From: Diphasiastrum complanatum
Taxonomy: Eukaryota > Streptophyta > Lycopodiopsida > Lycopodiales > Lycopodiaceae
Assembly (NCBI GenBank): GCA_029204225.1
Contig: CM055102.1
Coordinates: forward strand, 43,933,840-43,997,839
Direction: 5' to 3'
DNA: 64,000 bases
The notes beneath the pieces are model-generated. The model was given only the letters and a program-made list of their open reading frames with translations, ran no database searches and was not told the DNA's origin. The number at the start of each line of letters is the position of its first letter. Positions within the stretch are counted from its first letter, which is position 1. This document shows positions 1 through 42,215 of the stretch, in pieces. A program made the position numbers and the translations under genes.

Positions 1-2
1 GG

Positions 3-698: not shown

Positions 699-902
699 AC
701 ATTCATGGCCATTCTGAAGTTCAAGGAACTTTCCGGTATTTTTCTTAAGTTTGCCAATAAATCACTTGCAGCTTTACACAGGTTTTACGTAAGTGAACTT
801 TATCTACACTTTTCCTGTGCTACTGCCAATGTATTTTGTAATTCAAAGTTGCTAAGGCCGGTGAATTAAGCCCGTGCCATACGTCCTAGGTCTAGTTTGG
901 CC

Positions 903-939
903 CTGATGAGGACATCAGCTTTTTCAAACGAGGGGAGGA
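903..939 (+). promoter_or_regulatory. Hairpin plus polypurine tract before 3' LTR-B
   Basis: CTGATG-AGGA-CATCAG (903-918) is a perfect six-pair stem with a four-base loop. It is followed by the purine-rich AAACGAGGGGAGGA (926-939), which touches the LTR start at 940. The purine tract is the expected plus-strand primer site for reverse transcription. The same hairpin and spacing recur in the gag-only and LTR-A elements. Confidence 0.8.
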
Positions 940-1858
940 TGTTGTAAAGCTGACTCAGGTGCACCCAACGTGCCCTGTAAGACTCTAAGGGGTGACACTC
1001 TCTAAAGTCCCAGAGCAAGTTAGAACGTCAAGGACTGAGCCTCCGACCTGTGGTGAGCCGGTCAAGTAGTCACAAGTCATGAGCTAGCTCTGGAGCTCGA
1101 GTCATGGCCTAGTCAGGAAGCAAGTTGATTCTGCCACCGGAACGGCTCCCGGGACCCATGTTCGGGAGCCAGACTGATTCTGCCAGGCTTGCCAGGCTTA
1201 ATCAGCAAAATAAAAACTAAGTCCCAAAAAGCGTGCTTTACCAGAAAGCACTATGTTTCAGAACAGAGGGGGTGCGCCGAATCACAGCAGAACTATAGGG
1301 GGAGTCCGGCAGACAGAAACTTGGGCAGCTCAACCAGCGCCAGGAATCCAGTCGCCAGGTCTCAGCTCCCTCTACCAGCACGAGCCAGGCACAATGCCCA
1401 GCACGTGTTGGTGGCCCCGAGACCGGTCAGTCTATGTATGAATGTAACCTCTTCCAAATCTAATAAAGTTGATCCTTGGGGATGATTACCATTTCGGTTT
1501 CGCCTCCGGGACTGGTCCAAGTGGAAGGACCCTTTACTACAACCTTTTTGCGTCGCTGGCGCCTAAGGGTCCCTGTCATCGACATGGGGCTTGCCGCTAT
1601 GCCAATTGGTCAGTTTGGCGACCACTATGCCTTGGGTTTCATGTGTGGCTTGTCTTTGCCTTTGGTTACCTTTTGGGGACGGATTCTGAGTTGGCTTTCG
1701 GGTTGGTTGGGATTCCAGTTTTCTTAAGTCTGAATGGTTAAGCTTGTTACGATTCTGAGTTGGCTTTTACGTAAGTGCATGATGGATGAATGTTAGACTT
1801 AAGCGCGTGTTGGGGAAACCGCTCAAGTCCCAGCGCCCTTTGAGGCGCCGGCGCAACA
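940..1858 (+). repeat. LTR-B, 3' LTR of E4
   Basis: 919 bp, TG...CA ends (TGTTGTAAAGCTGACTC ... GCGCAACA). It holds a hairpin GTGCTTT-accag-AAAGCAC near 1232-1250, a conserved block ACTATAGGGGGAGT near 1293 that is also present in LTR-A, a poly(A) signal AATAAA at 1462-1467, and the palindrome TTACGTAA within TTTTACGTAAGTG near 1766. Small ORFs here recur in every LTR copy and are not genes. Confidence 0.9.
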
Positions 1859-22375: not shown

Positions 22376-22645
22376 CATATACAAGGGCACGGGCTTGATT
22401 CACCGGCCAAAGGAAACCAACTGTAAAGCCGAGTAATGATATTGTGTTTTACACCCAGCACAGGAAAAGTGTGGATCTAGTTCACTTACGTAAAACCTGT
22501 GTGAAGCTGCTGCACTTAGACATCAAACTGAAGCTCACTCCTCAATGAGAAATGCGGCTTACTTTATTAGCATGAAAGAAAAAGGTACTCACGGCTCCCT
22601 TAAGACTCAGATATGTCGTTGTCGTCGCACATCTGGATGAGTCCC

Positions 22646-24859
22646 CTATGACTCTAGATATTTCTTTTGGTCGTCCAGGTTGAGCTCCTTGAGCTCTGCA
22701 TCGGCACTTAGATTCACCTTTGACGTAGAAACTGCAGGCAATGTTGGCTCCATTTGAACTCGCGTCAGCTGGTTTGTCACTGTTGGATGTCTTTTGTTAA
22801 AAAAGTGAGCTTTCGCTTGGTCACACAAGGTGTGCTCCTTTAGCTCTGCATCGGCACTTGAATTCACCTTTGATGTAGAAACTATAGGCAATGTTGGCTC
22901 CATTTGTTCCCGTGTCAGCTGGTCTGTCACTGTTGGTTGTCCTTCGTTAAATAGGTGAATGAGATTGGGAGGAATGGTTGGCTCAGGTTCATTTGTGTCG
23001 TTCTTTTCTAGTTGGTCCCCTGGCACAGCTTTGACGACACAAGGTCTCCTGCCATTATATAATAACACAAGGTTAACCCCTTTTGCCAAGAAGGCCACCA
23101 CATGTTCGTTAAACCAGCTTAATCCCAAAATAGCGTCGAAGGCATCCATCTTCAAGATTGTGAACGTTAGTCGATTCTTCCAGGCTCCCAGAGAGATTGT
23201 TAAGTTGGTTGCCAATCTACAAGTGGTCATTGTACCTTTCGCGGTCTCCACACAAATAGGAGTCACATTTTCTTCACATTGGATGTCCAATTCTCCTGTC
23301 AGTTTTTCTGACAAGTAGTTATGTGACGCCCCCAGGTCTACCATGAAGTAAATGATCCTGTCTTGAATACAGCCTTTCAGGTACAATAACTTGGATCCTC
23401 TTGCAGGAGTCGCCATAAGATGTTCACGATAAGCCGCAAGTGCCCCTATCTGTTGCAAGGCATTCAGGTCAGACTCCGTCAAATCCGTTTCTGGGTCCTC
23501 TTCATCATCTTGTTCACCATCTTCTTGATCAAATGCCTCTCTCTCCATCCTATCAAATCCTTCAATGGCAGCCATGATTTGCTTATTCAATGGTTTGGGG
23601 CATGACCCCCAAGAGTGACCTTGCTGATGACAGTTGAAGCAACGCATGGAACTGCCCATTGTTGGTGAGCTGTTGTTGTGACTAGCTGAAGGTCCAACAT
23701 TGTTTCTTCTCTGGAACATGTTCCCTCCATTGTTGCCTTGGTTGCCAAACCCTGTTTTTGTTGGGAATTTATTCACGCTACTCGAGGCTTGGTTGCCATT
23801 TGGAGCTGAGTCCCCCCTTGAAAAGAAGCTCGGACTCGGTCTGGATCCACTAAATACTCTTGTTGAGGTTGCGGGAGCAGCTGGTGCCAATGTGCTCTCA
23901 TAATCACAAACCATTTTAGCCGCTCGAATAGTTGAATTGAAATCATGGGGCATGTAGCTGTCTATCGCACGCCGGGTCCAGGATTGCATTCTAGACAATA
24001 GGTAATGAGTTTTGTCCGCCTCGGACATATCTTCAATAACCCATACACTCTGTCTGAATCTATTGAGGTACTCTCGCAATGACCCTTTCTGTTTGAGCCC
24101 TGATAATTCTGTCCTCAATCTCATGTGTGAATCCTTCGGTATGAACTCCTCTCGTAACGCGGCTTTGAATGCGTCCCATGTTTGAAAATGCATTCCTGCC
24201 ATCCGGTACCAATTTGTAGTGTAGCCCTCAAAATATGCTAATGCCAAGTCAGTTCTTTCTTCCTCAGGAGTGTTCATCAGACGGAAGTAATGGTCCATGT
24301 GAAACAACCAATCTTTCACAACTCGAATGTCACGCTCTCCTTTTAAAGTAGGTGGTGCTTTCACTTTGGCAGTCTTTCTTGGGCCCTCCGTGGTTCGCGC
24401 TCGTGGTTCTCTTGGTATCTGTGGAGGAGGCGCCACTGCATTCTCCCTAGTTGCTTCCAACCCTTCAAACCTGGCTTCAAGCTGTGTTAGCCCGTCTATC
24501 ATTTCTCTAGCAAGGTTAATTTGAGTAAGATTCATGGCTCGCAAGGATGTTTGCCATTCTTTCCTTTCGGTTTCTCTATCCTTCTTCACCTCGCTAAGCA
24601 TAGCCGTCATTGCGCTTGATAAGTATTGTCACATCTTCACTTCAAAGAGGTCCTGTTGCGCCTCTGGCAAGGGTTCATCTCTTGGTGTAGGTTCAGAAGG
24701 GCCACCCATCTCTTCATGGAGGGGTGCCACTGTGGAGTGCATACGCTCTTTTTTTCTCGACTTGGACCTGGTGCCATCTCGATGTATGCGAGAGCTGTAT
24801 TCTCGAGTTAGCTCTTCTCCGTCCGTCACTGCTCGTAACTCTTCAAGATGGTCCTCCAT
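22646..24859 (-). pseudogene. Gag polyprotein with protease-like tail, one premature stop
   Basis: The start is the ATG at 24857-24859 (MEDHLEEL...), the same start as in E2. The frame is open to 22646 except for one TGA at 24629-24631, where E2 has Trp (TGG). About 737 codons. Domains in order: basic N-terminal linker, retrotransposon gag domain (from KAPPTLKGERDIRVVKDWLF to about IRAAKMVCDYES), Ser/Asn-rich linker, CCHC knuckle (CFNCHQQGHSWGSC), acidic linker, and a Ty3-type aspartic protease-like domain. Where active enzymes have D-S/T-G, this has D-L-G (VDLGASHNY), so cleavage activity is doubtful. The C-terminus has two tandem ~50-residue repeats (FNEGQPTVTDQLT and FNKRHPTVTNQLT). Gag forms the particle that packages element RNA. 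No pol follows. Confidence 0.88.
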
Positions 24860-25280
24860 TATAGTCAGAGGTGTACTTCCAACAGATTATCGCCTCAATC
24901 CTTTTTATATTTGAAGCTCTCCCTTCTGTCAGCCGGGCCCCACAGCTCTCTTTTCTTCTTTATTAAATCAGCTTCAATGAAAATATCCCTACCTCAAACT
25001 TAGCACGCCCACATCACCTGAGAGCCAAGTAGGAACCAGGTCATTTGTGTCCAAGCAAGCACACAACAAACGGAACATACCAACCAAAGCAAACACAGAG
25101 GATCCCTCTCAAGCCACAAACCCCCCTGAGACCGGACGTAGGACCTTTGCCTAGCCGGGCCCACACAAATCTATCACAGAATTAGCCCACGGGGAAACAT
25201 CCATCCAACCATCCGTGCTTTCACCATTAAGCAGCACATTGCCTCAGTCACGCCCCACCACTTTCTGGTCGATAGTCGTT
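24860..25280 (-). other. Leader of E1 upstream of gag
   Basis: Matches the E2 leader. It includes a TATA-like stretch (complement of CCTTTTTATATTTG near 24900) about 50 bp upstream of the gag start, and an AATAAA-like site. It is interrupted at 25281 by a solo LTR-A. Confidence 0.75.
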
Positions 25281-26464
25281 TGTTGTAAAGCTACCTTTAC
25301 AAGCTTTACTTCCAGCGCCATCGGCGCCAGCTATGTCCCCGGCGCCAACGGCGCCGGGGCCGCTCCCGGCGCCACTGTGACCAGAATCCAGCCGGCGCCA
25401 ACTTCTTATGGCTGAAAATTTTTGATCGGTTCTAGCGAAGTCCAGAGAGCTCAGATCGATGTGCAATCACCTCACACGATCTAGGCATGATTAAAGGAAG
25501 CCTGGGGATCAATAAAATCTAGAGAGAGAAAATGACTTTCTAGAAAGAGAAAATCCTAGAGAGAGAAAAACGTGCTTTACCAGCTTGGGTAGAGTGCTTG
25601 GTATGAGGGGGGGTGCCGAATCACACCAATACTATAGGGGAGTGCGGGTTGCGACTCAGGGCGAGCTCCAACCAAGTCTCAGCCTCCCTTGTTGGATTGT
25701 TGTCATGGCTCTCGCCTTGGCATGCTAGCGCCCCGGAGACTAGGGTCGGTCACACACTTGAAATGTAACCTTCTCAGATTTATCAATAAAGTGGGATTTT
25801 CCTCAAACTCACTCTGATTACCTTCTGGGTTTCAGTGTTCGGTAAAAGCGCCAGTTGTAAGGCCGCTTTCAAAATTTTTAACTTGGCACATAGCTGAGGG
25901 TCGTATCCCGGGACGCCAGCGGTATGTCGTCGGGACCATTCGGTCCGTGGCGCCAGCGGTATGCTGTCGGGACCATGTGGTCCAGGAACTGGTTGTTTCC
26001 ATATCTGTCGCGGCTTGTGGTTCTGAGTGTTCCTTGCATGAACGTGGATGGGTTAAGCTCCTGGGGAACGGGCTCTAACTTGTTACCTGTTTATGGTTGT
26101 CCAGTCTGGCGTGGCGCCAGGTTGACTTCCAACGCTCGTGACGAAGCTTTCAGTTGGTTAAGTCTGATGTAAGTCAGACCGCTTGCTTGGAATGGATGTT
26201 ACTCGTTTGTAACAAAGCTTCGAGTTGGTTAAGTTTGATGTATGTCGGGCGGCTTGCTTGGAGGGAAGTCACCCACATCGGGACCCCGATCTGGCATGGC
26301 GCCAGCTTGAATCTCAATGTTGGTCTTCGGAACTTCAAGTTGGTTAAGTCTGATCGTTGTTGGCGAGTTGGCTGCTTGTATGTCAAGTGGGTTCGGATGG
26401 CAAGAATTGAAGGCTGGGAAGCTAAGTCGTGGTTCCCGGCTCCCTTTGGGATGCCTGCGCTACA
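25281..26464 (+). repeat. Solo LTR-A in the E1 leader
   Basis: 1184 bp, complete ends, with a short internal deletion near 26080. The flanks are TCGTT on the left and CCCTT on the right. Intact leaders read ...GATAG-CCCTT-ATAGC here, so CCCTT is the target duplication and the left copy has two substitutions. A full element must once have been here and recombined to a solo LTR. Confidence 0.85.
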
Positions 26465-27104
26465 CCCTTATAGCTAAACGATCGGCAGCTATCCCGCACC
26501 GGCAGCTAACCACCCGTGCTTTACACCCGAATTCGAGCAGCATCTCTGAATCAATGGTTAACCCGTACAGTTCGAATATGTCGCCCCGCACCCCACAAGG
26601 TACAGACCGTGCTTTCACCTACCTAGGCAGCACTTTGCCTCATCCGTCCTACGTGCAGACAACGCCAGGCCCGAACCGCGAGAACTGACCGTGCTTACAC
26701 CTCGAGGGCAGCACTTTGACTCATCAAGTCCCACATTCTGCCGACCACCCGTGCTTACAGTGTGGGCAGCACCTTGCGCAACGTTTGTCCTGACAGATCC
26801 CAAAACGTGGCCATCCCTGTGAGACTTGCGTAGCTGATCGGCTAGTCGGCTCTGATACCACATGTTGCGCCGGCGCCTCAAAGGGCGCTGGGACTTGAGC
26901 GGTTTCCCCAACACGCGCTTAAGTCTAACATTCATCCATCATGCACTTACATAAAAGCCAACTCAGAAACGTAACAAGCTTAACCATTCAGACTTAAGAA
27001 AACTGGAATCCCAACCAACCCGAAAGCCAACTCAGAATCCGTCCCCAAAAGGTTACCAAAGGCAAAGACAAGCCACACATGAAACCCAAGGCATAGTGGT
27101 CGCC
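26465..27104 (-). other. Antisense leader, primer site and LTR-B end of E1 (cassette copy 2)
   Basis: Leader 26465-26848, primer site 26849-26860, LTR-B end 26863-27104. The LTR-B is cut at GGTCGCC by the LTR-A at 27105. This is the natural location of the cassette, because it continues E1's own leader from 25275; the copy at 18717-19356 lacks that context. Confidence 0.85.
26849..26860 (-). promoter_or_regulatory. tRNA-iMet primer binding site of E1
   Basis: GCTCTGATACCA on the plus strand. Confidence 0.88.
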
Positions 27105-28320
27105 TGTTGTAAAGCTACCTTCACAAGCTTTACTTCCGGCGCCATCGGCGCCAGCTATGTCGCGGCACCAGCTGCGCCCCGCTGGTCCCGGCGCCACTGT
27201 GACCAGAATCCAACCGGCGCCAAGTTCCTATGGCTGAAAATCTTTGATCGGTTCTAGCGAAGTCCAGAGAGCTCAGATCGATGTGCAATCACCTCACACG
27301 ATCTAGGCATGATTAAAGGAAGCCTGGGGATCAATAAAATCTAGAGAGAGAAAATGACTTTCTAGAAAGAGAAAATCCTAGAGAGAGAAAAAACGTGCTT
27401 TACCAGCTTTGGTAGAGTGCTTGGTATGAGGGGGGTGCCGAATCACACCAATACTATAGGGGAGTGCGGGTTGCGACTCAGGGCGAGCTCCAACCAAGTC
27501 TCAGCCTCCCTTGCTGGAATGTTGTCATGGCTCTCGCCTTGGCATGCTAGCGCCCCGAAGACTAGCGTCGGTGACACACTTGAAATGTAACCTTCTGAGA
27601 TTTATCAATAAAGTGGGATTTTCCTCAAACTGACTCTGATCACCTTCTGGGTTTCAGTGTTCGGTAAAAGCGAGAGTTGTAAGGCCGCTTTCAAAATTTT
27701 TAACTTGGCACATAGCTGAGGGTCGTATCCCGGGACGCCAGCGGTATGCCGTCGGGACCATTCGGTCCGTGGCGCCAGCGGTATGCTGTCGGGACCATTT
27801 GGTCCAGGAACTGGTTGTTTCCATATCTGTCGCGGCTTGTGGTTCTGAGTGTTCCTTGCATGAACGTGAATGGGTTAAGCTCTTGGGGAACGAGCTCTAA
27901 CCTGTCGGCTGAGTTGGATGGCTTGCTTTGGTGGATGTTACCTGTTTATGGCTGTCCAGTCTGGCGTGGCGCCAGGTTGGCTTCCAGCGCTCGTGACGAA
28001 GCTTTCAGTTGGTTAAGTCTGATGTAAGTCAGACCACTTGCTTGGAATGGATGTTACTCGTTTGTAACGAAGCTTCGAGTTGGTTAAGTGTGATGTATGT
28101 CGGGCGGCTTGCTTGGAGGGAAGTCACCCACGTCGGGACCCCCGATCTGGCATGGCGCCAGGTTGGATCTCAATGTTGGTTTTCGGAACTTCAAGTTGGT
28201 TAAGTCTGATCGTTGTTGGCGAGTTGGCTGCTTGTATGTCAAGTGGGTTTGGATGGCAAGAGTTGAAGGCTGGGAAGCTAAGTCGTGGTTCCCGGCTCCC
28301 TTTGGGATGCCTGCGCTACA
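27105..28320 (+). repeat. LTR-A at the E1 inversion breakpoint
   Basis: 1216 bp. The left flank is antisense LTR-B of E1; the right flank is ATATG plus sense trailer of E1. The two flanks are different sites of the same element in opposite orientation, so this LTR is the product of recombination between two LTR-A insertions. Confidence 0.85.
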
Positions 28321-28422
28321 ATATGTGACTAAAGTCTGGCCGGTGAATTAAGCCCGTGCCATGAGTCTTAGGTTCTAGTTTGGCCTTGATGAGGACATCA
28401 GCTTTCTCAAACGAGAGGAGGA
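28321..28422 (+). promoter_or_regulatory. Trailer end, hairpin and polypurine tract of E1
   Basis: Matches the trailer at 33340-33442 of E2. The hairpin is slightly decayed (TTGATGAGGACATCAG) and the purine tract ends AAACGAGAGGAGGA next to the LTR-B start. Confidence 0.85.
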
Positions 28423-29343
28423 TGTTGTAAAGCTGACTCGGGTGCACCCAGCGTGCCCTGTAAGACTCAAAGGGGTGACACTCCCTAAGGTCCCAGAGCA
28501 AGTTAGAACGTCAAGGACTGAGCCTCCGACCTGTGGTGAGCAAGTCAAGTAGTCACAAAGTCATGAGCTAGCTCTGGAGCTTGAGTCATGGCCTAGTCAG
28601 AAAAGCAGGTTGATTCGGCCGCCGGGACGGCTCCCGGGACCCATGTCCGGGAGCCAGACTGATTCTGCCAGGCTTGCCAGGCTTAATCAGCAAAATAAAA
28701 ACTAAGTCCTAAAAAGCGTGCTTTACCAGAAAGCACTATGTTTCAAACCAGAGGGGGTGCGCCGAATCACAGCAGAACTATAGGGGGAGTCCGGCAGACA
28801 GAAACTTGGGCAGCTCAACCAGCGCCAAGAATCCAGTCGCCAGGTCTCAGCTCCCTCTACCAGCACGAGCCAGGCACAATGCCCAGCACGTGTTGGTGGC
28901 CCCGAGACCGGTCAGTTTATGTATGAATGTAACCTCTTCCAAATCTAATAAAGTTGATCCTTGGGGATGATTACCATTTCGGTTTCGCCTCCGGGACTGG
29001 TCCAAGTGGAAGGACCCTTACTACAACCTTTTTTGCGTCGCTGGCGCCTAAGGGTCCCTGTCATCGACATGGGGCTTGCCGCTATGCCATTTGGTCAGTT
29101 TGGCGACCACTATGCCTTGGGTTTCATGTGTGGCTTGTCTTTGCCTTTGGTAACCTTTTGGGGACGGATTCTGAGTTGGCTTTCGGGTTGGTTGGGATTC
29201 CAGTTTTCTTAAGTCTGAATGGTTAAGCTTGTTACGTTTCTGAGTTGGCTTTTATGTAAGTGCATGATGGATGAATGTTAGACTTAAGCACGTGTTGGGG
29301 AAACCGCTCAAGTCCCAGCGCCCTTTGAGGCGCCGACGCAACA
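28423..29343 (+). repeat. LTR-B, 3' LTR of E1
   Basis: 921 bp. The right flank GCATG belongs to LTR-A 'R' and is the presumed target duplication. Confidence 0.88.
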
Positions 29344-29376
29344 GCATGCTAGCGCCCCGGAATTAGTGTCGCTCAC
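29344..29376 (+). repeat. 33-bp piece of LTR-A 'R' between E1 and E2
   Basis: GCATGCTAGCGCCCCGG... is the middle of LTR-A. It separates the two gag-only elements and continues at 34368, so E1 and E2 inserted independently 30 bp apart in the same LTR. Confidence 0.85.
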
Positions 29377-30296
29377 TGTTGTAAAGCTGACTCGGGTGCA
29401 CCCAGCGTGCCCTGTAAGACTCAAAGGGGTGACACTCTCTAAGGTCCCAGAGCAAGTTAGAACGTCAAGGACTGAGTCTCCGACCTATGGTGAGCCAGTC
29501 AAGTAGTCACAAAGTCATTAACTAGCTCTGGAGCTCGAGTCATGGCCTAGTCAGAAAAGCAGGTTGATTCGACCGCCGGGACGGCTCCCGAGACCCATGT
29601 CCGGGAGCCAGACTGATTCTGCCAGGCTTGCCAAGCTTAATCAGCAAAATAAAAACTAAGTCCTAGAAAGCGTGCTTTACCAGAAAGCACTATGTTTCAA
29701 ACCAGAGGGGGTGCGCCGAATCACAGCAGAACTATAGGGGGAGTCCGGAAAACAGAAACTTGGGCAGCTCAACCAGCGCTAGGAATCCAGTCGCCAGGTC
29801 TCAGCTCCCTCTCCCACCACGAGCCAGGCACAATGCCCAGCACGTGTTGGTGGCCCCGAGACCGGTCAGTCTATGTATGAATGTAACCTCTTCCAAATCT
29901 AATAAAGTTGATCCATGGGGATGATTATCATTTTGGTTTCGCATGTGGGACTGGTCTAAGTGGAAGGACCCTTACTACAACCTTTTTGCGTCGCTGGCGC
30001 CTAAGGGTCCCTGTCATCGACATGGGGCTTGCCGCTATGCCAATTGGTCAGTTTGGCGACCACTATGCCTTGGGTTTCATGTGTGGCTTGTCTTTGCCTT
30101 TGGTTACCTTTTGGGGACGGATTCTGAGTTGGCTTTCGGGTTGGTTGGGATTCCAGTTTTCTTAAGTCTGAATGGTTAAACTTGTTACGTTTCTGAGTTG
30201 GCTTTTACGTAAGTGCATGATGGATGAATGTTAGACTTAAGCGCGTGTTGGGGAAACCGCTCAAGTCCCAGTGCCCTTTGAGACGTCGGCGCAACA
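29377..30296 (+). repeat. LTR-B, 5' LTR of E2
   Basis: TGTTGTAAAGCTGACTC ... GCGCAACA. Confidence 0.9.
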
Positions 30297-30298
30297 TG

Positions 30299-30310
30299 TG
30301 GTATCAGAGC
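30299..30310 (+). promoter_or_regulatory. tRNA-iMet primer binding site of E2
   Basis: TGGTATCAGAGC two bases after the LTR. Confidence 0.92.
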
Positions 30311-31127
30311 CGACTAGCTGGTCAGCTACGCAAGTCTCACAGGGATGGCCACGTTTTGGGATTTGTCAGGACAACCGTTGCGCAAGGTGCTGCCCATAGT
30401 GTAAGCACGGGTGAGTCCACGGTCGGGGTTGTCGGCAGAACGGGGGACTTGATGAGTCAAAGTGCTGCCCTCGAGGTGTAAGCACGATCAGTTCTCGCGG
30501 TTCGGGCCTGGCGCTGTCTGCACGTAGGACGGATGAGGCAAAGTGCTGTCTAGGTAGGTGAAAGCACGGTCTGTACCTTGTGGGGTGCGGGGCGACATAT
30601 TTGAACTGTACGGGTTAATCATTGATACAGAGATGCTGCTCGAATTCGGGTGTAAAGCACGGGTGGTTAGCTGCCGGTGTGGGATAGCTGCCGATCGTTT
30701 AGCTATAAGGGCTATCGACCAAAAAGTGGTGGGGCGTGACTGAGGCAATGTGCTGCTTAATGGTGAAAGCACAGATGGTTGGATGGATGTTTCCCCGTGC
30801 GCTAATTCTGTGATAGATTTGTGTGGGCGCGGCTAGGCAAAGGTTCTACGTCCGGTCTCAGGGGGGTTTGTGGCTTGAGAGGGATCCTCTGTGTTTGCTT
30901 TGGTTGGTATGTTCCGTTTGTTGTGTGCTTGCTTGGACACAAATGACCTGGTTCCTACTTGGCTCCTAGGTGATGTGGGCGTGCTAAGTTTGAGGAAGGG
31001 ATATTTTCATTGAAGCTGATTTAATAAAGAAGAAAAGAGAGCTGTGTGGCCCGGCCGACAGAAGGGAGAGCTTGAAATATAAAAAGGATTGAGGCGATAA
31101 TCTGTTGGAAGTACACCTTTGACTATA
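30311..31127 (+). other. Structured leader of E2
   Basis: Hairpins of the GTGCT...AGCAC type start near 30387, 30462, 30543, 30633 (ATGCT variant) and 30750, with one GTTTAGCTATAAGG unit near 30697. The last 150 bp before gag are unique to gag elements. They contain AATAAA near 31024 and a TATA-like ATATAAAAAG near 31077, about 50 bp before the gag ATG. Confidence 0.75.
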
Positions 31128-33075
31128 ATGGAGGACCATCTTGAAGAGTTATGAGCATTGACGGACGGAGAAGAGCTGACTTGAGAATACAGCTCTCGCA
31201 TGCATCGAGATGGCACCAGGTCCAAGTCGAGAAAGAAAGAGCGTATGCAGTCCACAGTGGCGCCTCTCCAAGAAGAGATGGGTGGCCCTTCTGAACCTAC
31301 ACCAAGAGATGAACCCTTGCCAGAGGCGCAACAGGACCTCTTTGAAGTGAAGATGTGGCAATACTTATCAAGCGCAATGACGGCTATGCTTAGCGAGGTG
31401 AAGAAGGATAGACAAACTGAAAGGAAAGAATGGCAAACATCCTTGCGAGCCATGAATCTTACTCAAATTAACCTTGCTAGAGAAATGAGAGACGGGCTAA
31501 CACAGCTCGAAGCCAGGTTTGAAGAGTTGGAAGCAACTAGGGGGAATGCAGTGGCGCCTCCTCCACAGATACCAAGAGAACCACGAGCGCGAAACACGAA
31601 GGGCCCAAGAAAGACTGCCAAAGTGAAAGCACCACCTACTTTCAAAGGAGAGCGTGACATTCGAGTTGTGGAAGATTGGTTGTTTCACATGGACCATTAC
31701 TTCCGTCTGATGAACACTCCTGAGGAAGAAAGAACTGACTTGGCATTAGCATATTTTGAGGGCTACACTACAAATTGGTACCGGATGGCAGGAATGCATT
31801 TTCAAACATGGGACGCATTCAAAGCCGCGTTACGAGAGGAGTTCATACCGAAGGATTCACACATGAGATTGAGGACAAAATTATCGGGGCTCAAACAGAA
31901 AGGGTCATTGCGAGAGTACCTCAATAAATTCAGACAGAGTGTATGGGTTATTGAAGATATGTCCGAGGCGGACAAAACTCATTACCTATTGTCTGGAATG
32001 CAATCTTGGACCCGGCGTGCGATAGACAGCTACATGCCCCATGATTTCAATTCAACTATTCGAGCGGCTGAGATGGTTTGTGATTATGAGAGCACATTGG
32101 CACCAGCTGCTCCCGCAACCTCAACAAGAGTATTTCGTGGATCCAGACCGAGTCCGAGCTTCTTTTCAAGGGGGGACTCAGCTCCAAATGGCAACTAAGC
32201 CTCGAATAGCGTGAACAAATTTCCAACAAAAACAGGGTTTGGCAACCAAGGCAACAATGGAGGGAACATGTTCCAGAGAAGAAACAATGTTGGACCTTCA
32301 GCTAGTCACAGCAACAGCTCACCAACAGTGGGCAGTTCCATGCGTTGCTTCAACTGTCATCAGCAAGGTCACTCTTGGAGGTCATGCCCCAAACCATTGA
32401 ATAAGCAAATCATGGCTGCCATTGAAGGATTTGATAGGATGGAGAGAGAGGCATTTGATCAAGAAGATGGTGAACAAGATGATTGTTACAATGACCACTT
32501 GTAGATTGGCAACCAACTTACCAATCTCTCTGGGAGCCTGGAAGAATCGACTAACGTTCACAATCTTGAAGATGGATGCTTTCGACGCTATTTTGGGATT
32601 AAGCTGGTTTAACAAACATGTGGTGGCCTTCTTGGCAAAAGGGGTTTATTTTGTGTTATTATATAATGGCAGGAGACCTTGTGTCGTTAGAGCTGTGCCA
32701 GGGGACCAACTTTAAAAGAACGACACAAATGAACCTGAGCCAACCATTCCTCCCAATCTCATTCACCTATTTAACGAAGGACAGCCAACAGTGACAGACC
32801 AGCTGACACGGGAACAAATGGAGCCAACATTGCCTATAGTCTCTACATCAAAGGTGAAATCAAGTGCCGATGCAGAGCTCAAGGAGCTCACCTTGTGTGA
32901 CCAAGCGAAAGCTCACTTCTTTAACGAAGGACATCCAACAGTGACAAACCAGCTGACGCGAGGTCAAATGGAACCAACATTGCCTGTAGTTTCTACATCA
33001 AAGGTGAATCTAAGTGCCGATGTAGAGCTCAAGGAGCTCAACCTGGACGACCAAACGAAATATCTAGAGTCCTAG
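31128..33075 (+). pseudogene. Gag polyprotein, several stops and a protease deletion
   Basis: Homologous to the E1 gag over its whole length. Stops: TGA at 31152-31154 and 31182-31184 (both CGA in E1), TAA at 32196-32198 (CAA in E1), and TAA at 32713-32715. The first three are C-to-T changes. The gag domain (about 31620-32100) and the CCHC knuckle (CFNCHQQGHSWRSC, about 32347) are otherwise intact. About 260 bp are missing near 32483, removing the protease active-site region and shifting the frame. The C-terminal tandem repeats (32770-33070) are retained. The sequence keeps Trp where E1 has its stop, so the two copies decayed independently. Confidence 0.88.
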
Positions 33076-33442
33076 GGGACTCATCCAGATGTGCGACGAA
33101 AACGACATATCTGAGGCTTAAGGGAGCCGTAAGTACCTTTTTCTTTCATGTTAATAAAGTAAGCCGCATTTCTCATCGAGGAGTGAGCTTCAGTCTAATG
33201 TCTAAGTGCAGCAGCTTCACACAGGTTTTACGTAAGTGAACTAGATCCACACTTTTCCTGTGCTGGGTGTAAAACACAATATCATTACTCCGCTTTACAT
33301 TTGGTTTCCTTTGGCCGGTGAATCAAGCCCGTGCCCTTGTATATGTGACTAAAGTCTGGCCGGTGAATTAAGCCCGTGCCATGAGTCTGAGGTTATAGTT
33401 TGGCCCTGATGAGGACATCAGCTTTCTCAAACGAGGGGAGGA
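33076..33442 (+). promoter_or_regulatory. Trailer of E2 with AATAAA, hairpin and polypurine tract
   Basis: AATAAA near 33152, the palindrome TTACGTAA within TTTTACGTAAGTG near 33227, the hairpin CTGATG-AGGA-CATCAG at 33406-33421, and the purine tract AAACGAGGGGAGGA at 33429-33442. The order is the same in the pol-only trailer at 699-939. Confidence 0.8.
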
Positions 33443-34362
33443 TGTTGTAAAGCTGACTCGGGTGCACCCAACGTGCCCTGTAAGACTCAAAGGGGTGACA
33501 CTCTCTAAGGTCCCAGAGCAAGTTAGAACGTCAAGGACTGAGCCTCCGACCTGTGGTGAGCCAGTCAAGTAGTCACAAAGTCATGAGCTAGCTCTGGAGC
33601 TCGAGTCATGGCCTAGTCAAAAAAGCAGGTTGATTCGGCCGCCGGGACGGCTCCCAGGACCCATGTCCGGGAGCCAGACTGATTCTGCCATGCTTGCCAG
33701 GCTTAATCAGCAAAATAAAAACTAAGTCCTAGAAAGCGTGCTTTACCAGAAAGCACTATGTTTCAAACCAGAGGGGGTGCGCCGAATCACAGCAGAACTA
33801 TAGGGGGAGTCCGGCAGACAAAAACTTGGGCAGCTCAACCAGCGCCAGGAATCCAGTCGCCAGGTCTCAACTCCCTCTACCACCACGAGTCAGGCACAAT
33901 GCCCAACACGTGTTGGTGGCCCCGAGACCGGTCAGTCTATGTATGAATGTAATATCTTCCAAATCTAATAAAGTTGAGCCTTGATGATGATTACCATTTT
34001 GGTTTCGCCTCCGGGACTGGTCCAAGTGGAAGGACCCTTACTACAACCTTTTTGCGTCGTTGGCGCCTAAGGGTCCCTGTCATCGACATGGGGCTTGCCG
34101 CTATGCCAATTGGTCAGTTTGGCGACCACTATGCCTTGGGTTTCATGTGTGGCTTGTGTTTGCCTTTGGTTACCTTTTGGGGACGGATTCTGAGTTGGCT
34201 TTCGGGTTGGTTGGGATTCCAGTTTTCTTAAGTCTAAATGGTTAAGCTTGTTACGTTTCTGAGTTGGCTTTTACGTAAGTGCATGATGGATGAATGTTAG
34301 ACTTAAGCGCGTGTTGGGGAAACCGCTCAAGTCCCAGCGTCCTTTGAGGCGCTGGCGCAACG
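33443..34362 (+). repeat. LTR-B, 3' LTR of E2
   Basis: 920 bp, same length as the 5' LTR; final CA mutated to CG. Confidence 0.88.
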
Positions 34363-34367
34363 GTCAC

Positions 34368-35112
34368 ACACTTGAAATGTAACCTTCTCAGATTTATCAA
34401 TAAAGTGGGATTTTTCTCAAATTGACTTTGATTACCTTCTGGGTTTCAGTGTTCGGTAAAAGCGCCAGTTGTAAGGCCGCTTTCAAAAATTTTATCTTGG
34501 CACATAGTTGAGGGTCGTATCCCGGGACGCCAGCGGTATGCCGTCGGGACCATTCGGTCCGTGGCGCCAGCGGTATGCTGTCGGGACCATTTGGTCCAGG
34601 AACTGGTTGTTTCCATATCTGTCGCGGCTTGTGGTTATGAGTGTTCCTTGCATGAACGTGAATGGGTTAAGCTCTTGGGGAACGGGCTCTAACCTGTCGG
34701 CTGAGTTGGATGGCTTGCTTGGGTGGATGTTACTTGTTTATGGCTGTCCAGTCTGGCGTGGCGCCAGGTTGGCTTCCAGCGCTCGTGACGAAGCTTTCAG
34801 TTGATTAAGTCTGATGTAAGTCAGACCGCTTGCTTGGAATGAATGTTACTCGTTTGTAACGAAGCTTCGAGTTGGTTAAGTTTGATGTATGTCGGGCGGC
34901 TTGCTTGGAGGAAAGTCACCCACATCGGGACCCCCGATCCGGCATGGCGCCAGGTTGGATCTCAATGTTGGTTTTCGGAACTTCAAGTTGGTTAAGTCTG
35001 ATCGTTGTTGGCGAGTTGGCTGCTTGTATGTCAAGTGGGTTTGGATGGCAAGAATTGAAGGCTGGGAAGCTAAGTCGTGGTTCCCGGCTCCCTTTGGGAT
35101 GCCTGCGCTACA
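34368..35112 (+). repeat. LTR-A 'R', right part
   Basis: Continues the LTR-A interrupted at 29376, including AATAAA near 34401, and ends in GCGCTACA. No primer site follows, so R is a solo or 3' LTR; the next bases GCCCA may be its target duplication. Confidence 0.85.
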
Positions 35113-35131
35113 GCCCACCTGCCTGGCGCCG

Positions 35132-35940
35132 TGTTGTTAAGCTATCTTCATAAGCTTTACTTTCGGCGCCACTGGGGCCAGCATTGTCCCCGGCGCCAGC
35201 AGTGCCGGCGCCACTCCCGGCGCCACTGTGACCAGAATCCAACCGGCGCCAAGTTTCTATGGCTGAAAATCTTTGATCGGTTTTAGTGAAGTCTAGAGAG
35301 CTCAGATCGATGTGCAGTCACCTCACACGGTCTAGGCATGATTAAAGGAAGCCTCAAGGTCAAAAAAATCTAGAGAGAGAAAATGACTTTCTAGAAAAAG
35401 AAAATCCTAGAGAGAGAAAAACGTGCTTTACCAGCTTGGGTAGAGTGCTTGTTATGAGGGGGGGCGCCGAATCACACCAATACTATAGGGGAGTGCGGGT
35501 TGCGACTCAGGGCGAGCTCCAACCAAGTCTCAGCCTCCCTTGCTGGAATGTTGTCATGGCTCTCGCCTTGGCATGCTAGCGCCCCGGAGACTAGGGTCGG
35601 TCACACACTTGAAATGTAACCTTCTTAGATTTATGAATAAATTGGAATTTTCCTCAAACTGACTCTGATTACCTTCTGGGTTTCAGTGTTCGGTAAAACC
35701 GCCAGTTGTAAGGCCGCTTCAAAATTTTTAAGTTGACACATAGCTGAGGGTCGTATCTAGGGACGCCAGCGGTATGCCGTCGGGATCATTTGGTCCGTGG
35801 CGCCAACGGTATGCTGTCGGGACCATTTGGTCCAGGAACTGGTTGTCTCCATATCTGTCGCGGCGTGTGGTTCTGAGTGTTCCTTGCAATGGGTTAAGCT
35901 CTTAGGGAACGGGCTCTAACCTGTCGACTGAGTTGGATGG
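35132..35940 (+). repeat. LTR-A 'Q', left part (older copy)
   Basis: Begins TGTTGTTAAGCTATC, more diverged than the other copies, with small deletions. Interrupted at GATGG (35936-35940) by E3; it continues at 42221. Confidence 0.85.
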
Positions 35941-36858
35941 TGTTGCGCCGGCGCCTCAAAGGGCGCTGGGACTTGAGCGGTTTCCCCAACACGCGCTTAA
36001 GTCTAACATTCATCCATCATGCACTTACGTAAAAGCCAACTCAGAATCGTAACAAGCTTAACCATTCAGACTTAAGAAAACTGGAATCCCAACCAACCCG
36101 AAAGCCAACTCAGAATCCGTCCCCAAAAGGTAACCAAAGGCAAAGACAAGCCACACATGAAACCCAAGGCATAGTGGTCGCCAAACTGACCAATTGGCAT
36201 AGCGGCAAGCCCCATGTCGATGACAGGGACCCTTAGGCGCCAGCGACGCAAAAAGGTTGTAGTAAGGGTCCTTCCACTTGGACCAGACCCAGAGGCGAAA
36301 CCGAAATGGTAATCATCCCCAAGGATCAACTTTATTAGATTTGGAAGAGGTTACATTCATACATAGACTGACCGGTCTCGGGGCCACCAACACGTGCTGA
36401 GCATTGTGGCTGGCTCGTGCTGGTAGAGGGAGCTGAGACCTGGCGACTGGATTCCTGGCGCTGGTTGAGCTGCCCAAGTTTCTGTCTGCCGGACTCCCCC
36501 TATAGTTCTGCTGTGATTCGGTGCACCCCCTCTGTTCTGAAACATAGTGCTTTCTGGTAAAGCACGCTTTTTGGGACTTAGTTTTTATTTTGCTGATTAA
36601 GCCTGGCAAGCCTGGCAGAATCAGTCTGGCTCCCGGACATGGGTCCCGGGAGCCGTTCCGGTGGCAGAATCAACTTGCTTCCTGACTAGGCCATGAATCG
36701 AGCTCCAGAGCTAGCTCATGACTTGTGACTACTTGACTGGCTCACCACAGGTCGGAGGCTCAGTCCTTGATGTTCTAACTTGCTCTGGGACTTTAGGGAG
36801 TGTCACCCCTTAGAGTCTTACAGGGCACGTTGGGTGCACCTGAGTCAGCTTTACAACA
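35941..36858 (-). repeat. LTR-B, 3' LTR of E3
   Basis: 918 bp. About 8-10 visible differences from the 5' LTR. Confidence 0.92.
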
Positions 36859-37099
36859 TCCTCCCCTCGTTTGAAAAAGCTGATGTCCTCATCAGGGCCA
36901 AACTAGACCTAGGACGTATGGCACGGGCTTAATTCACCGGCCTTAGCAACTTTGAATTACAAAATACATTGGCAGTAGCACAGGAAAAGTGTAGATAAAG
37001 TTCACTTACGTAAAACCTGTGTAAAGCTGCAAGTGATTTATTGGCAAACTTAAGAAAAATACCGGAAAGTTCCTTGAACTTCAGAATGGCCATGAATGT
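36859..37099 (-). promoter_or_regulatory. Trailer, hairpin and polypurine tract of E3
   Basis: Purine tract at 36859-36872 (AAACGAGGGGAGGA in element orientation), hairpin just upstream, TTACGTAA near 37007 and AATAAA near 37040, as in E4 and E2. Confidence 0.82.
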
Positions 37100-40000
37100 T
37101 TATGTAAGAGGCATGCCGCCAGGTAGTGCTTTGTGTGCCGATCTGGAAAAACGGCTATTGCGTTGGTTCTTCTGCAGATAATCTGCTAGTACTTCAGGGG
37201 CTCCCTCCTTAAGTTTGTCTTCGTACTCCCAAGAAGCCTCAATAAGTGGAGCCCGTAGCCACTTCACTAGATATTCACGTTGAACGCCAGTTCGCTTTCT
37301 ATGTGTCAGTATTTGTTCTGGTACAAGCTGCCTCTTCGTATCATCAAGTGTCGTTGGTGGGTGACGGAGTTCGTGTTGCCGATCAAATCGCTCATCTGGT
37401 TTGTACCGTTTGAGTAATGAGATATGAAACACATTGTGTATATCCAAGCTGGATGGCAACGCTAATCGATAAGCCACTGGGTTGATCTTCTTGGTGACAT
37501 AATATGGTCCCGCATAAGGTCGAGCAAACTTATGAGAAAAACCTTTTGGTAGCACAATGTTCTTTGTGTTCAGCCATACTTGATCACCTTCCTCAAATTC
37601 CAGTTCTCGTCGATGTGGGTTTACGTCAGCTGCCATACTCCTTTGTGACTGCTCTAAAAACGCCTTCACCTCGGTCAGCTTTGTGTGCCACTCATTGATG
37701 AATTCCTCCACAGTGGGTACTGGTGTTTCCTGCACGCCTGTAAGAAAAGAGCTTGGAACAATCGGTAGCCGACCATTGCTTATCTCGAAGGGTGCCCTTC
37801 CAGTAGATCTGTTCACTTGGTTGTTATGTGCAAACTCGAGAATATCCAAGTAGTTGACCCAATCGGATTGGTCCCAAGCGACATAATTTCGTAAATATTG
37901 TTCAATCTGTCGATTGACTCGCTCCGTTTGCCCATCTGTCTGAGGATGATATGCAGTACTGAAATTCAATCCGGTTCCCACGAGGCGAAATAGACAAGTC
38001 CAAAACTTTCCGACGAACTTGGTGTCTCGGTCAGAAATAATCGTTCTAGGCAGGCCGTGGTATTTGAAAACACATTTGAAAAATAACCTTGCCACTTCTT
38101 CAGCTGTCACTGAACTTTTAGTTGGTACTAGATGAACTTGCTTTGAAAAGCGGTCAACCACCACATAAATTGAGTCGAATCCTTGGCACCGTGGTAGTTG
38201 AACAATAAAATCCATGCTCACCGAATCCCATGGGTATGCTGGTACCGGTAATGGTTGGAGTAGTCCAGCCGGAGCTAGCGGTTCCACCTTCACTTGTTGA
38301 CATGTCGGGCATGTTTGTACATAAGATTCAACGTCTGCCCACATACTTGGCCAATAGAAGCCTCTTTTGAGAAGTTCATACATGCGATTCACCCCTGGAT
38401 GCCCGGCGGCTAGTACGTCATGATGTTCTCGCAAGACTTTCTTCCTCAGGATGATGTTGTCTGGGACATATACTCTGCGTTGTTTATAAACAACCATTTG
38501 ATCTTTCCAAGTGAAATGTTTATGAGGCTTTCCCAGCTGGAATTCGATCATTAAGTCCTTCGCCAACGCATCTACACCATAATTCTCTCTGATTTCTTGG
38601 AGTAGGTCAGTCACCTGAGTTGTCACTGTTGCCATCAAGTGTTCTTGTCTACTTAGTGCGTCCGCCACCACATTGTTCTTTCCCACCGTGTGTAAAATGT
38701 CTATATTGAATTTTGAGAGAAAGTTTTGCCATCGCATTTGCTTTGGCGTGAGCATACCTTGGGATGAGAAGTACTTGAGTGATACATTATCAGTGAACGC
38801 CTTAAAGGGTTTTCCTGCCACATAATGTCTCCAATGCTCCACTGCTTGGACTACTGCGACCATTTCTTTTTCATGAGTTGGCCATCGTCGCTCTACGTCA
38901 CTCAATTTCTTTGAAAAATATGCAACAGGTTTTCCGTCTTGCATCAGCACGGCCCCAATAGCAAAGTTCGACGCATCTGTATGTATTTCAAAAGGTTTGC
39001 TAAAGTCCGGTAAGGCAAGGATGGGTTCTTGAGTGATCCGTCGTTTTAGTTCCTGGAACGCTGCTTCACATTCCGGTGTCCATGTCATCTTCAGATGAGT
39101 CTTGGTCTGCTCCAACAGTGGTGCCACAATTTTGCTAAATGCCTCAATGAATCTCCTGTAAAAGTTACATAAGCCCACAAAGGATTTGATGCCATGAACA
39201 GTTTTAGGTGCTAGCCAATCCAAGATAGCCTTGATCTTCTTAGGATCCATTCGAATCCGTCCGTGGCCTATAACATGTCCAAGGAAGTCAACTTCCTCCA
39301 CCACAAACTCACATTTCTCTCTTTTCGCGAACAAGCAGTTCCTCCTCAGTCGTTGGAGAACTGTCCTTAAATGTTGAATGTGATCTTTAAGGTTCCGGCT
39401 AAATACTAATATGTCATCAATGTACACAATGACAAATTCATCCAGGCAGTCTTGAAATATATTGTTCATCAACGTGCAAAAAGTGGCTGGTGCGTTTGTT
39501 AGACCGAATGGCATCACTAGGAACTCGTGACTTCCGTACCGCGTTCGAAACGCCGTTTTGTGCTCATCACCTTTAGCTATTCGAATTTGATGATATCCAT
39601 ATCTGAGATCTATTCGGCTAAAGTATTTGGCATGTTTGAGTTGGTCGAATAGGTCATCAATTCTAGGCATGGGGTACTTGTTCTTGATGGTACTCTTGTT
39701 AAGCATGCGATAATCCACACACATTCGAAGAGTTTTGTCTGCCTTTTCCACGAACAACACTGGGGCTCCAAAAGGTGAAGCGCTAGGTCTAATAAAACCT
39801 TTGTCTATCAATTCACCAAGTTGTCGTTTCAGTTCCGCCAACTCTTCTTGTGACATTCTGTAGGGTGCTCGTGAAGTTGGCTCTGTTCCTGGTACCAACT
39901 CAATTTTATGGTCCACTGGTCTTCGAGGAGGTAGCTTAGCTGGGAGTTCCTCCGGGAACACATCGCTAAATTCTTCTAACAGATCTGCCACTTCTTTTGG

Positions 40001-40582
40001 CAAGTTTTCTTGTCGCACGCTTTTCCCTTCTGGGACTTCTCGACAGATGCAAAGAAAGCACTTTGACCTTTTCCCTTTCGCCATTCTTTTCATCGCTAAT
40101 GCTGCAACCAGATTTTGTTCAATATCGGTATCCTTAGCATTTCCTCCGGGCAGGGCTTTTGTCACGCAGATTTGTCCCTTATAATCCAAGAGGACCAAGT
40201 TTGAGCTCCTACCCAAAACTGCGATACAGTGTTCATTTAACCAAGGGAGGCCCAAAATCACATCAAAGGCATCCATCTCTAAAATCACGAAGCTAAGTTT
40301 AGCCTTCCATCTTCCAATCTGCACCGGGATGTTCAATGTCGCTTTGTCTGCATCTAGTGCTCCCTTCGCTGTTTCTACCTTGAGAGTAGATGTAACATTC
40401 CTGGTCGGCAAGCTGAATTGTTCTACTACGCTCCTTGAGATATAGTTATGTGAAGCTCCGGAGTCGATCATGAAATCTGACTTCCTCCCCGCGATCTTTC
40501 CTGATAAGAATAACAATCTTGAACCAATCTTGGGGGTTGCCCCATGGAAGTTCCTTTCCATACTTGTGCGTCGTCCACTCAT
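37100..40582 (-). CDS. pol: Chromovirus Pol polyprotein (PR-RT-RH-IN-chromodomain), intact, without gag
   Basis: 1160 residues, no stop or frameshift. In order: aspartic protease with intact D-S-G ([12 protein letters not shown], residues ~36-47); reverse transcriptase with the catalytic box YIDDILVF (~395); RNase H ([13 protein letters not shown], ~535); integrase with the HHCC finger (H..H..CPTCQQ, ~720-770), the D,D,E core ([24 protein letters not shown]) and GPY/F module; and a C-terminal chromodomain ([10 protein letters not shown]...SWEYED, ~1100). The first Met lies shortly upstream of the protease, and no gag or CCHC knuckle precedes it. Usual Ty3/gypsy elements encode Gag-Pol together at about 1500 residues. 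The protein can make and insert cDNA but needs Gag from another source. The chromodomain type places it among chromoviruses; the clade is not determined. Confidence 0.95.
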
Positions 40583-41283
40583 AAATGTAAGCTCCTCTCA
40601 CAACTCCCAACTAGATCAGATCACCTGGATCAAAAGAAGTAGTCAGGGATAATTCAGGTCCAGGCAAGCACACCACAAACGAACATACCAACCAAAGCTA
40701 AACAGAGGATCCCTCTCAAGTCACATTCCCCTTGAGACCGGACGTAGGATCTTTGCCTAGCCGCGCCCACACAAATCTATCACAGAATTAGCCCACGGGG
40801 AAACATCCATCCAACCATCCGTGCTTTCACCATTAAGCAGCACATTGCCTCAGTCACGCCCCACCACTTTTTGGTCGATAGCCCTTATAGCTAAACGATC
40901 GGCAGCTATCCCGCACCGGCAGCTAACCACCCGTGCTTTACACCCGAATTCGAGCAGCATCTCTGTATCAATGGTTAACCCGTACAGTTCGAATATGTCG
41001 CCCCGCACCCCACAAGGTACAGACCGTGCTTTCACCTACCTAGGCAGCACTTTGCCTCATCCGTCCTACGTGCAGACAGCGCCAGGCCCGAACCGCGAGA
41101 ACTGACCGTGCTTACACCTCGAGGGCAGCACTTTGACTCATCAAGTCCCCCGTTCTGCCGACCACCCCGACCGTGGACGCACCCGTGCTTACACTGTGGG
41201 CAGCACCTTGCGCAACGGTTGTCCTGACAAATCCCAAAAACGTGGCCATCCCTGTGAGACTTGCGTAGCTGACCGACTAGTCG
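40583..41283 (-). other. Leader of E3 upstream of pol
   Basis: Shares the hairpin leader with E1, E2 and the LTR-A elements, with one GTTTAGCTATAAGG unit. The shared part ends near 40655; the last ~70 bp before the pol ATG are unique to pol elements. No gag remnant is visible. Confidence 0.8.
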
Positions 41284-41295
41284 GCTCTGATACCA
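41284..41295 (-). promoter_or_regulatory. tRNA-iMet primer binding site of E3
   Basis: GCTCTGATACCA on the plus strand, two bases from the LTR. Confidence 0.92.
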
Positions 41296-41297
41296 CA

Positions 41298-42215
41298 TGT
41301 TGCGCCGGTGCCTCAAAGGGCGCTGGGACTTGAGCGGTTTCCCCAACACGCGCTTAAGTCTAACATTCATCCATCATGCACTTACGTAAAAGCCAACTCA
41401 GAATCGTAACAAGCTTAACCATTCAAACTTAAGAAAACTGGAATCCCAACCAACCCGAAAGCCAACTCAGAATCCGTCCCCAAAAGGTAACCAAAGGCAA
41501 AGACAAGCCACACATGAAACCCAAGGCATAGTGGTCGCCAAACTGACCAATTGGCATAGCGGCAAGCCCCATGTCGATGACAGGGACCCTTAGGCGCCAG
41601 CGACGCAAAAAGGTTGTAGTAAGGGTCCTTCCACTTGGACCAGTCCCGGAGGCGAAACCGAAATGGTAATCATCCCCAAGGATCAACTTTATTAGATTTG
41701 GAAGAGGTTACATTCATACATAGACTGACCGGTCTCGGGGCCACCAACACGTGCTGGGCATTGTGCCTGGCTCGTGCTGGTAGAGGGAGCTGAGACCTGG
41801 CGACTGGATTCCTGGCGCTGGTTGAGCTGCCCAAGTTTCTGTCTGCCGGACTCCCCCTATAGTTCTGCTGTGATTCGGCGCACCCCCTCTGTTCTGAAAC
41901 ATAGTGCTTTCTGGTAAAGCACGCTTTTTGGGACTTAGTTTTTATTTTGCTGATTAAGCCTGGCAAGCCTGGCAGAATCAGTCTGGCTCCCGGACATGGG
42001 TCCCGGGAGCCGTTCCGGTGGCAGAATCAACTTGCTTCCTGACTAGGCCATGACTCGAGCTCCAGAGCTAGCTCATGACTTGTGACTACTTGACTGGCTC
42101 ACCACAGGTCGGAGGCTCAGTCCTTGACGTTCTAACTTGCTCTGGGACTTTAGGGAGTGTCACCCCTTAGAGTCTTACAGGGCACGTTGGGTGCACCTGA
42201 GTCAGCTTTACAACA
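41298..42215 (-). repeat. LTR-B, 5' LTR of E3
   Basis: 918 bp, ends TGTTGT...CAACA in element orientation; hairpin GTGCTTT-accag-AAAGCAC and AATAAA present. Confidence 0.92.

Follow-up and report, generated by a model that had tools for sequence, protein, structure and literature searches.

The window considered here, 64,000 nucleotides of the Diphasiastrum complanatum genome (GenBank assembly GCA_029204225.1, contig CM055102.1, positions 43,933,840 to 43,997,839 of the forward strand), contains two classes of retrotransposons that have the same long terminal repeats (LTRs), termed LTR-B. One class encodes pol without gag, the other gag without pol. Comparison of sequences across the whole assembly suggests that these are probably the halves of an old two-part retrotransposon that complement each other in trans and exchange their ends by template switching. 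Each class is present at hundreds of places and none of the copies checked has both genes. It is thus most likely that neither half can manage without the other, which would resemble the situation of segmented viruses.

Elements of the window

The whole pol-only element E3 occupies positions 35941..42215 on the reverse strand. It consists of the 5' LTR-B (41298..42215), the primer site TGGTATCAGAGCC with a 698-bp leader (40600..41297), the pol frame (37100..40597), the trailer with the polypurine tract (36859..37099), and the 3' LTR-B (35941..36858). The LTRs, identified by self-comparison, are 918 bp long and differ at 9 of 918 positions (99.02% identity). The element is flanked on both sides by the target duplication GATGG. 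The pol frame has the order of domains of Ty3/gypsy chromoviruses, protease (with the DSG motif), reverse transcriptase (RT), RNase H, integrase and chromodomain, and also an SH3 domain. Its first ATG is near 40582, immediately ahead of the protease domain. The domain scan gave no gag match in the open frame 37100-40597. An intact pol frame without gag is what the preliminary description, made from the window alone, had claimed for this element.

The second pol-only element, E4, lies at the edge of the window (1..1858, forward strand), where its pol 3' end, trailer and LTR are found. The visible part had been recognised as pol, and the DNA upstream of it (locus L009, G000:C11:43926500-43936000) holds the remainder of a complete pol-only copy. 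The leader-pol junction of E4 is the same as in E3, and its leader and pol are 99.86% and 99.5% identical to those of E3, respectively. The LTR pair has 1 mismatch and 1 gap column in 918, the target duplication is CACCT/CACCT, and the frame contains one in-frame stop.

The gag-only element E2 (29377..34361, forward strand) is older and its frame is broken. Its LTRs (29377..30295 and 33443..34361, by self-comparison) differ at 39 of 919 positions (95.76% identity), and the target duplication CTCAC/GTCAC matches at 4 of 5 positions. The primer site and the leader common to E3 (30296..30938, by self-comparison) are followed by a gag frame with Retrotrans_gag and Ty3_capsid domains (31185..32198, by the domain scan) and by a region with broken frames that contains the nucleocapsid, a decayed protease-like domain and a tail with 150-bp repeats (32199..33075). 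About 269 bp that are present in most other gag loci are missing from E2.

The other gag-only element, E1, is on the reverse strand and incomplete. Its match to E2 stops near 22374 and its 5' LTR-B is reduced to 242 bp (26863-27104). E1 retains a gag-protease frame of 660 codons (22646..24628) with Retrotrans_gag and RVP_2 matches, the latter with a DLG motif. Within its leader lies a solo LTR-A, a second type of LTR (25281-26464), which separates the 3' part of the leader (25049..25275, by self-comparison) from the 5' part with the last 242 bp of the LTR (26465..27104). The C-terminal tail of the gag frame contains a tandem 150-bp repeat in E1 (22684-22958), in E2 (32763-33060) and in other gag loci.

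The primer site is present in both E3 and E2. Their leaders have 643 columns in common at 96.1% identity, the common part extending to approximately 40658 in E3, and the trailers have common blocks of 54 and 85 bp. No further long DNA match between the interiors of the two elements was found by sequence comparison. Hence the preliminary description was right on the common LTR-B, primer site, leader and trailer, and on the lack of any element with both gag and pol in the window, E3 and E4 being pol-only, and E2 and E1 gag-only. It had also ascribed to E1 and E2 gag plus a protease remnant. The absence of pol stands, and the remnant has to be re-interpreted, as in intact gag copies the protease is a conserved domain of the DLG type.

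Census of the genome

The assembly (1.74 Gb, 5176 contigs) was searched with exact 36-mer tags and with longer probes, whose matches are ranked by similarity. All tag and probe counts refer to places in the assembly and should not be read as numbers of independent insertions. Reversed control tags for the leader-pol junction, the pol protease and gag gave 0 matches in the whole assembly, and thus the tag matches are far above chance.

A 901-bp RT probe produced 1329 first-look candidates; the best 40 were scored, and 40 of 40 are listed at 100% (rounded). Thirty pol loci were read, E3 (L040) and E4 (L051) among them. As expected of gag-deficient elements, the leader runs straight into pol in 29 of the 30; all these have LTR-B, the 698-bp leader, pol, and one common leader-pol junction. 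Deletion derivatives with unrelated breakpoints, which the preliminary description had set against its own proposal, would not look like this. In the thirtieth locus, L061, which has no leader, pol begins at nt 267 and is fused to the 3' end and LTR-B of a gag element. The frame is stop-free through the 960-961 codons in view in 23 of the 30 loci. Among the pol-only copies read to the 3' end, only E3 has an open frame.

In the whole assembly, the exact junction tag occurs at 287 places and the pol protease tag at 212. The 5' side of pol was checked for 76 protease tags on contigs C1 to C8, the stretch covered by the first 100 matches listed for each of these two tags. The exact junction is 300-520 bp upstream in 59 of them. 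The sequences of the remaining 17 were retrieved as well. In 16 of them the junction is the same apart from small changes, and the last has an internal deletion that joins leader nt 171 to pol nt 125. Gag between leader and pol was observed in 0 of the 76 copies. Of eight integrase loci obtained by a genome search, one has a weak match to the E3 pol, and seven have none at 1e-5.

The pol-only copies are nearly absent from contig C6 (75.6 Mb), with 0 protease tags and 1 junction tag among the matches listed against 9.2 and 12.4 expected. Gag tags do occur on this contig, with 6 in the last rows of the matches listed.

With an 851-bp probe taken from E2, 1069 candidates were obtained, of which the best 40 were scored and 30 were read, including E2 itself (L010). 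Gag is present in all 30 loci, no pol match longer than 60 bp was found within 3.85 kb in any of them, and the exact trailer tag of the gag type is present in 25. When a young gag copy served as the probe, the full 901-bp score, that is, identity, was reached at 35 of 40 scored places, counting the source copy itself. In locus L039, the frame of 746 codons matches gag and protease families only. It is thus a single frame with Gag and a protease domain and without RT or integrase, as in semi-autonomous GAG-Pro elements.

The exact gag tag occurs at 390 places in the whole assembly, and neither class is a singleton, an outcome that had also been considered. For 94 gag tags on C1 to C5, among the matches listed, no pol tag was found within 3 kb downstream on the same strand. 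In two of the 94 a pol element lies about 4 kb downstream. In L103 (G000:C2:72253300-72255200), a single LTR-B is common to a gag element and a pol element; L061 is arranged in a similar way, and the first 266 nt of pol are missing there. In L104, the two elements are separated by one partial and one whole LTR. In total, no element with both gag and pol, the combination usual in Ty3/gypsy chromoviruses, was seen in the 76 pol copies, the 94 gag tags, and the 30 gag and 30 pol loci read. These are the places where the many young full-length elements envisaged in the preliminary description were sought.

Protease domains and common ends

Between the protease domain of the gag side and that of the pol side, identity is 44% over 142 residues (128 bits). 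At the DNA level, blastn between the two regions produced short matches only, the longest being 49 bp at 78%. Both domains were compared with 122 collected proteins, 120 of which were gathered with the E3 pol and two with the E1 gag. The best match of the gag-side domain scored 70 bits (35.7% identity), and that of the pol-side domain 69 bits. Among the proteins compared, each of the two domains is probably the nearest kin of the other. The search with the E1 gag protein had yielded two distant proteins among 8000 candidates scored. The search with the E3 pol protein had yielded 120 listed proteins, each at most about 50% identical; since the best match is only about 50%, the host's own copies seem to be absent from that database.

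The ends of the elements are much more similar than the protease domains. The gag copy L039 is identical to eight pol copies over 300 bp of the LTR end and 500 bp of the leader. The leaders were aligned for 26 pol and 19 gag loci (without L012, L016, L037, L042, L049, L069 and the loci lacking the primer site). Only column 56 within the first 546 columns is diagnostic of the class, and there are many such columns beyond. Between-class identity is 0.96-0.99 up to column 550, and falls to 0.93, 0.85 and then 0.57 over the three 50-column blocks that follow. Repeated exchange in the common part would leave a profile of this kind. As the proteases are only 44% identical under near-identical LTRs, the halves seem to have separated long ago; the differing proteases suggest an old split and a lasting coexistence of the partners.

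Transposition and age

Four gag-only and four pol-only complete copies were chosen from the loci read, and the outer parts of their LTRs were fetched. All eight have LTRs, the polypurine tract and identical 5-bp target duplications. The duplications are GAAAC, CCGAG, CTTGG and CTTGG in the gag copies, and GGTTT, CTCAT, CAAGC and CTTGG in the pol copies. The numbers of LTR mismatches are 0/915, 11/927, 8/925 and 8/925 in the gag copies, and 1/922, 1/922, 1/925 and 0/924 in the pol copies, where the two LTR pieces compared overlap by a few bases, and by 42 in the first gag copy. In L039, the gag copy with 0 mismatches, the LTRs also differ by 47 bases in length. Two gag copies, L034 and L022, both have CTTGG and 8 mismatches and may be duplications of one another. 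Origin of the copies solely by segmental duplication is not supported, given the 5-bp duplications in all eight copies with flanks read. One LTR mismatch corresponds to about 42,000 years, and the ages of E3 and E2 to about 0.4 and about 1.6 million years, respectively, at a rate that may not fit this host. The mean pairwise difference is 0.23% in the pol sample (28 copies) and 1.7% in the gag sample (30 copies).

The pol-only copies with 0-1 LTR differences must have received Gag in trans. The preliminary description had claimed such recent supply for E3, and the young copies bear it out as far as the supply itself is concerned; we infer that the gag-only class was the source, with both RNAs in one particle. 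Likewise, of the complementing family proposed there, the two classes with common ends exist genome-wide, and co-packaging and supply in trans are what their common ends suggest.

Coding constraint

Variants present in two or more of the 30 gag copies (shared variants) have a ratio of nonsynonymous (N) to synonymous (S) changes of 0.37 (52 S, 68 N), compared to 0.77 in singletons (66 S, 181 N; Fisher p 0.0019). This pattern indicates that gag is under purifying selection. In the gag-side protease-like part, the ratio in shared variants is 0.29 (p 0.004 against the site expectation).

Proteases of the retroviral type have the motif D-S/T-G. The DSG motif is present in 29 of 29 readable pol copies (one of the 30 is unreadable), and the gag-side domain has DLG in 28 of 28 readable gag copies (two of the 30 are unreadable). 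As DLG deviates from the motif, the gag-side domain has probably lost cleavage, or retains it at a reduced level, and yet the domain is kept.

Proposed mechanism and its alternatives

Both classes are alike in the LTR termini, the primer site of the initiator-tRNA type (presumably the one usual in plants), approximately the first 540 nt of the leader, and the polypurine tract. Because of this likeness, the same enzymes could use both RNAs. As in segmented genomes, essential genes reside on separately propagated units with common ends.

The following mechanism can be proposed. Gag-only elements would produce Gag ending in the protease-like domain with the altered DLG motif, and pol-only elements would produce protease, RT, RNase H, integrase and chromodomain from their own start codon beside the protease. 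Gag would form particles, into which transcripts of both classes would be packaged through the common leader. The enzymes encoded by pol would then copy and integrate elements of both classes. Co-packaging would let the reverse transcriptase switch templates in the common ends, so that the ends stay alike and the coding interiors remain separate. Pol would have to enter the particles without a Gag-Pol fusion. Retroviral-type proteases act as dimers, and one possibility is that Pol enters via pairing of the DLG domain with the Pol protease. A stricter version, which we put forward only tentatively, is an obligate two-part element with no full-length driver at all, in which the Gag RNA and the Pol RNA travel in one particle, switching keeps the ends compatible, and the DLG domain serves as a non-cleaving dock for the Pol protease.

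Several observations weigh against the two-part reading. Firstly, the counts are not straightforward. Some small contigs look like repeats of chromosome places (pairs with equal scores), equal identity values occur among the 17 fetched loci (L087 and L088; L089 and L090), and the first-look candidates, 1329 for pol and 1069 for gag, outnumber the tag counts. The whole 746-codon gag frame is open in only 3 of the 30 loci, in a sample picked by likeness to the old E2. Secondly, in the protease tree of 78 rows, E1 and E3 attach at an open fork with a clade of 37 relatives on one side and one of 39 on the other, and thus are not resolved as sisters. Thirdly, in the tree of LTR and leader sequences, which covers the 51 of 60 loci with a usable primer site, the labels cluster by class, with 4 changes compared to 14.8 under shuffling (none of 500 shuffles was as low); therefore the exchange is not free mixing. 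Fourthly, shared variants in the gag-side protease-like part do not differ significantly from singletons (p 0.29), nor is the contrast significant in pol (6 and 3 against 32 and 55; p 0.15). Finally, the route of entry of Pol is only a proposal.

The first alternative is a full-length gag+pol driver with the same ends that is rare, diverged or unassembled, both halves being its non-autonomous followers. This is the arrangement proposed for wheat RLG_Wilma and RLG_Cereba (PMC9744471, PMC11302176; here and below, statements about published systems refer to the accessible parts of the sources). The assembly is in 5176 contigs, and with exact 36-mer tags, which detect near-identical copies only, and similarity-ranked searches, diverged full-length copies would escape. 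On the other hand, a driver as young as its followers ought to resemble one of the two probes, and the census produced no such element among the pol copies, gag tags and loci checked. We consider a driver of this kind unlikely.

A little less likely still is a recent single template switch by which the pol interior took the place of the gag interior on LTR-B ends, or vice versa, creating a one-off chimera that was then amplified with no lasting partnership. The uniformity of the pol sample (0.23% as compared to 1.7% for gag), which implies a recent common ancestor of the sampled pol copies, would fit such an event, as would the protease tree without sister resolution. However, this uniformity may just reflect the fact that the probe, E3, picks the youngest burst. 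Further, the divergence of the leaders climbs over about 150 columns beside the junction, not at one point. The two proteases score higher against each other than against the 122 collected proteins, so that pol is not necessarily foreign; for the same reason, foreign capture of pol is not favoured.

It is also improbable, slightly more so than a chimera, that Gag for the pol-only class comes from an unrelated full-length family, and Pol for the gag-only class likewise, so that the shared ends reflect common origin only. Other gag sequences are abundant, with 25,871 first-look candidates in the genome, which also weighs against the two-part reading, and Tos17 is active without gag (PMC3977881). 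However, common origin alone does not explain identical ends in classes whose proteases are 44% identical. Besides, the Gag of the gag-only class is under selection, and both classes have copies at 0-1 LTR mismatches.

Finally, complementary internal deletions of one recent full-length parent, suggested for E2 and E3 by the common LTR, leader and trailer, can be practically dismissed, as both elements keep a protease domain with 44% identity between the two, one fixed junction occurs at 287 places, and no parent was seen.

Other features of the window

The trailer and LTR-B of another element of the same family are found at 28321..29343 on the forward strand (by self-comparison). The second LTR type, LTR-A, is about 1.2 kb long; it is seen in the element 12628-17402, and related stretches occur within 1858-22349 and 25281-28320. 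The start of LTR-A resembles that of LTR-B (TGTTGTAAAGC), and LTR-A elements have the same primer site and leader. The interior of the LTR-A element (13846-16184) contains no frame exceeding 133 codons, and this element may be a non-coding third member of the family. Gag can also be found under LTR-A: in L016, LTR-A precedes the leader and gag. A hairpin-like sequence, CTGATGAGGACATCAG, was observed by eye directly before the polypurine tract in all three trailers (E3, 36859-37099; E2, 33060-33442; LTR-A, 16080-16184).

Nested LTR-A stretches form direct duplications, 5846-8570/9907-12628 at 97.9% and 17500-20573/25281-28320 at 97.4%; the second of these duplications includes a piece of the E1 leader. 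The AT-rich side of the window contains a frame of 164 codons matching zf-C17orf113 (60264-60758, reverse strand) and a 0.8-kb direct repeat (53104-53921/56848-57663, 95.5% identical).

Relation to known systems and significance

LTR elements coding for Gag alone are known as TR-GAG; to our knowledge, they have not been described with a pol-only partner having identical ends. In foamy viruses, Pol is made apart from Gag, and thus packaging of Pol without fusion is possible; one genome holds both genes in this case.

The closest plant systems are in wheat. RLG_WHAM and RLG_Sabrina_SA encode Gag-protease only, have high copy numbers, and need RT and integrase from elsewhere, like the gag-only class described here (PMC9744471). 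However, their presumed pol donor, Wilma, encodes its own GAG and has hardly any sequence in common with them, whereas in the present family gag is absent from the pol donor, and the ends of the partners can be identical. No full-length partner with its own gag, such as that of WHAM and Sabrina_SA, was seen among the copies checked. In the pair RLG_Quinta-RLG_Cereba of Einkorn wheat, the partner is gag-only, parts of the LTRs are common, and template switching has been proposed (PMC11302176). This is analogous to the situation here, but Cereba is a full gag-pol element, and Quinta encodes GAG and an unknown domain that is not protease-like.

Among gag-less elements, Tos17 of rice is an active pol element (PMC3977881). 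Unlike the pol-only class, it is of the Copia type and has two copies, its Gag is presumed to come from the full-length Lullaby, and no matching gag-only partner is reported in the accessible text. BARE-2 of barley (cited in PMC3977881, PMC9744471) is gag-deficient and presumably receives Gag in trans; its gag is disrupted rather than absent, and the partner supplying GAG is BARE-1. Athila of Arabidopsis is similar in that non-autonomous elements retain intact frames under purifying selection and distant lineages recombine, but the accessible part of that paper does not describe a reciprocal pair of gag-only and pol-only elements with identical ends (PMC2410132).

Thus the plant systems in print, as far as these sources go, are of two kinds: in one, a complete element has a gag-only follower, and in the other, an element lacking gag has a helper presumed to be complete. 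Our literature search, with most subscription papers outside its reach, found no family of pol-only and gag-only elements lacking a full-length member. In the present family, the gene missing from one half is found in the other, very young copies exist of both, and there is no complete element among those checked. If the two-part reading is true, this family is a retroelement counterpart of segmented viruses, and a retrotransposon can be stably split. The Gag:Pol ratio could then be set by the number of copies or transcripts. The family would provide a natural system for studying packaging in cis and in trans, cooperation of transposons, and the origin of segmented genomes.

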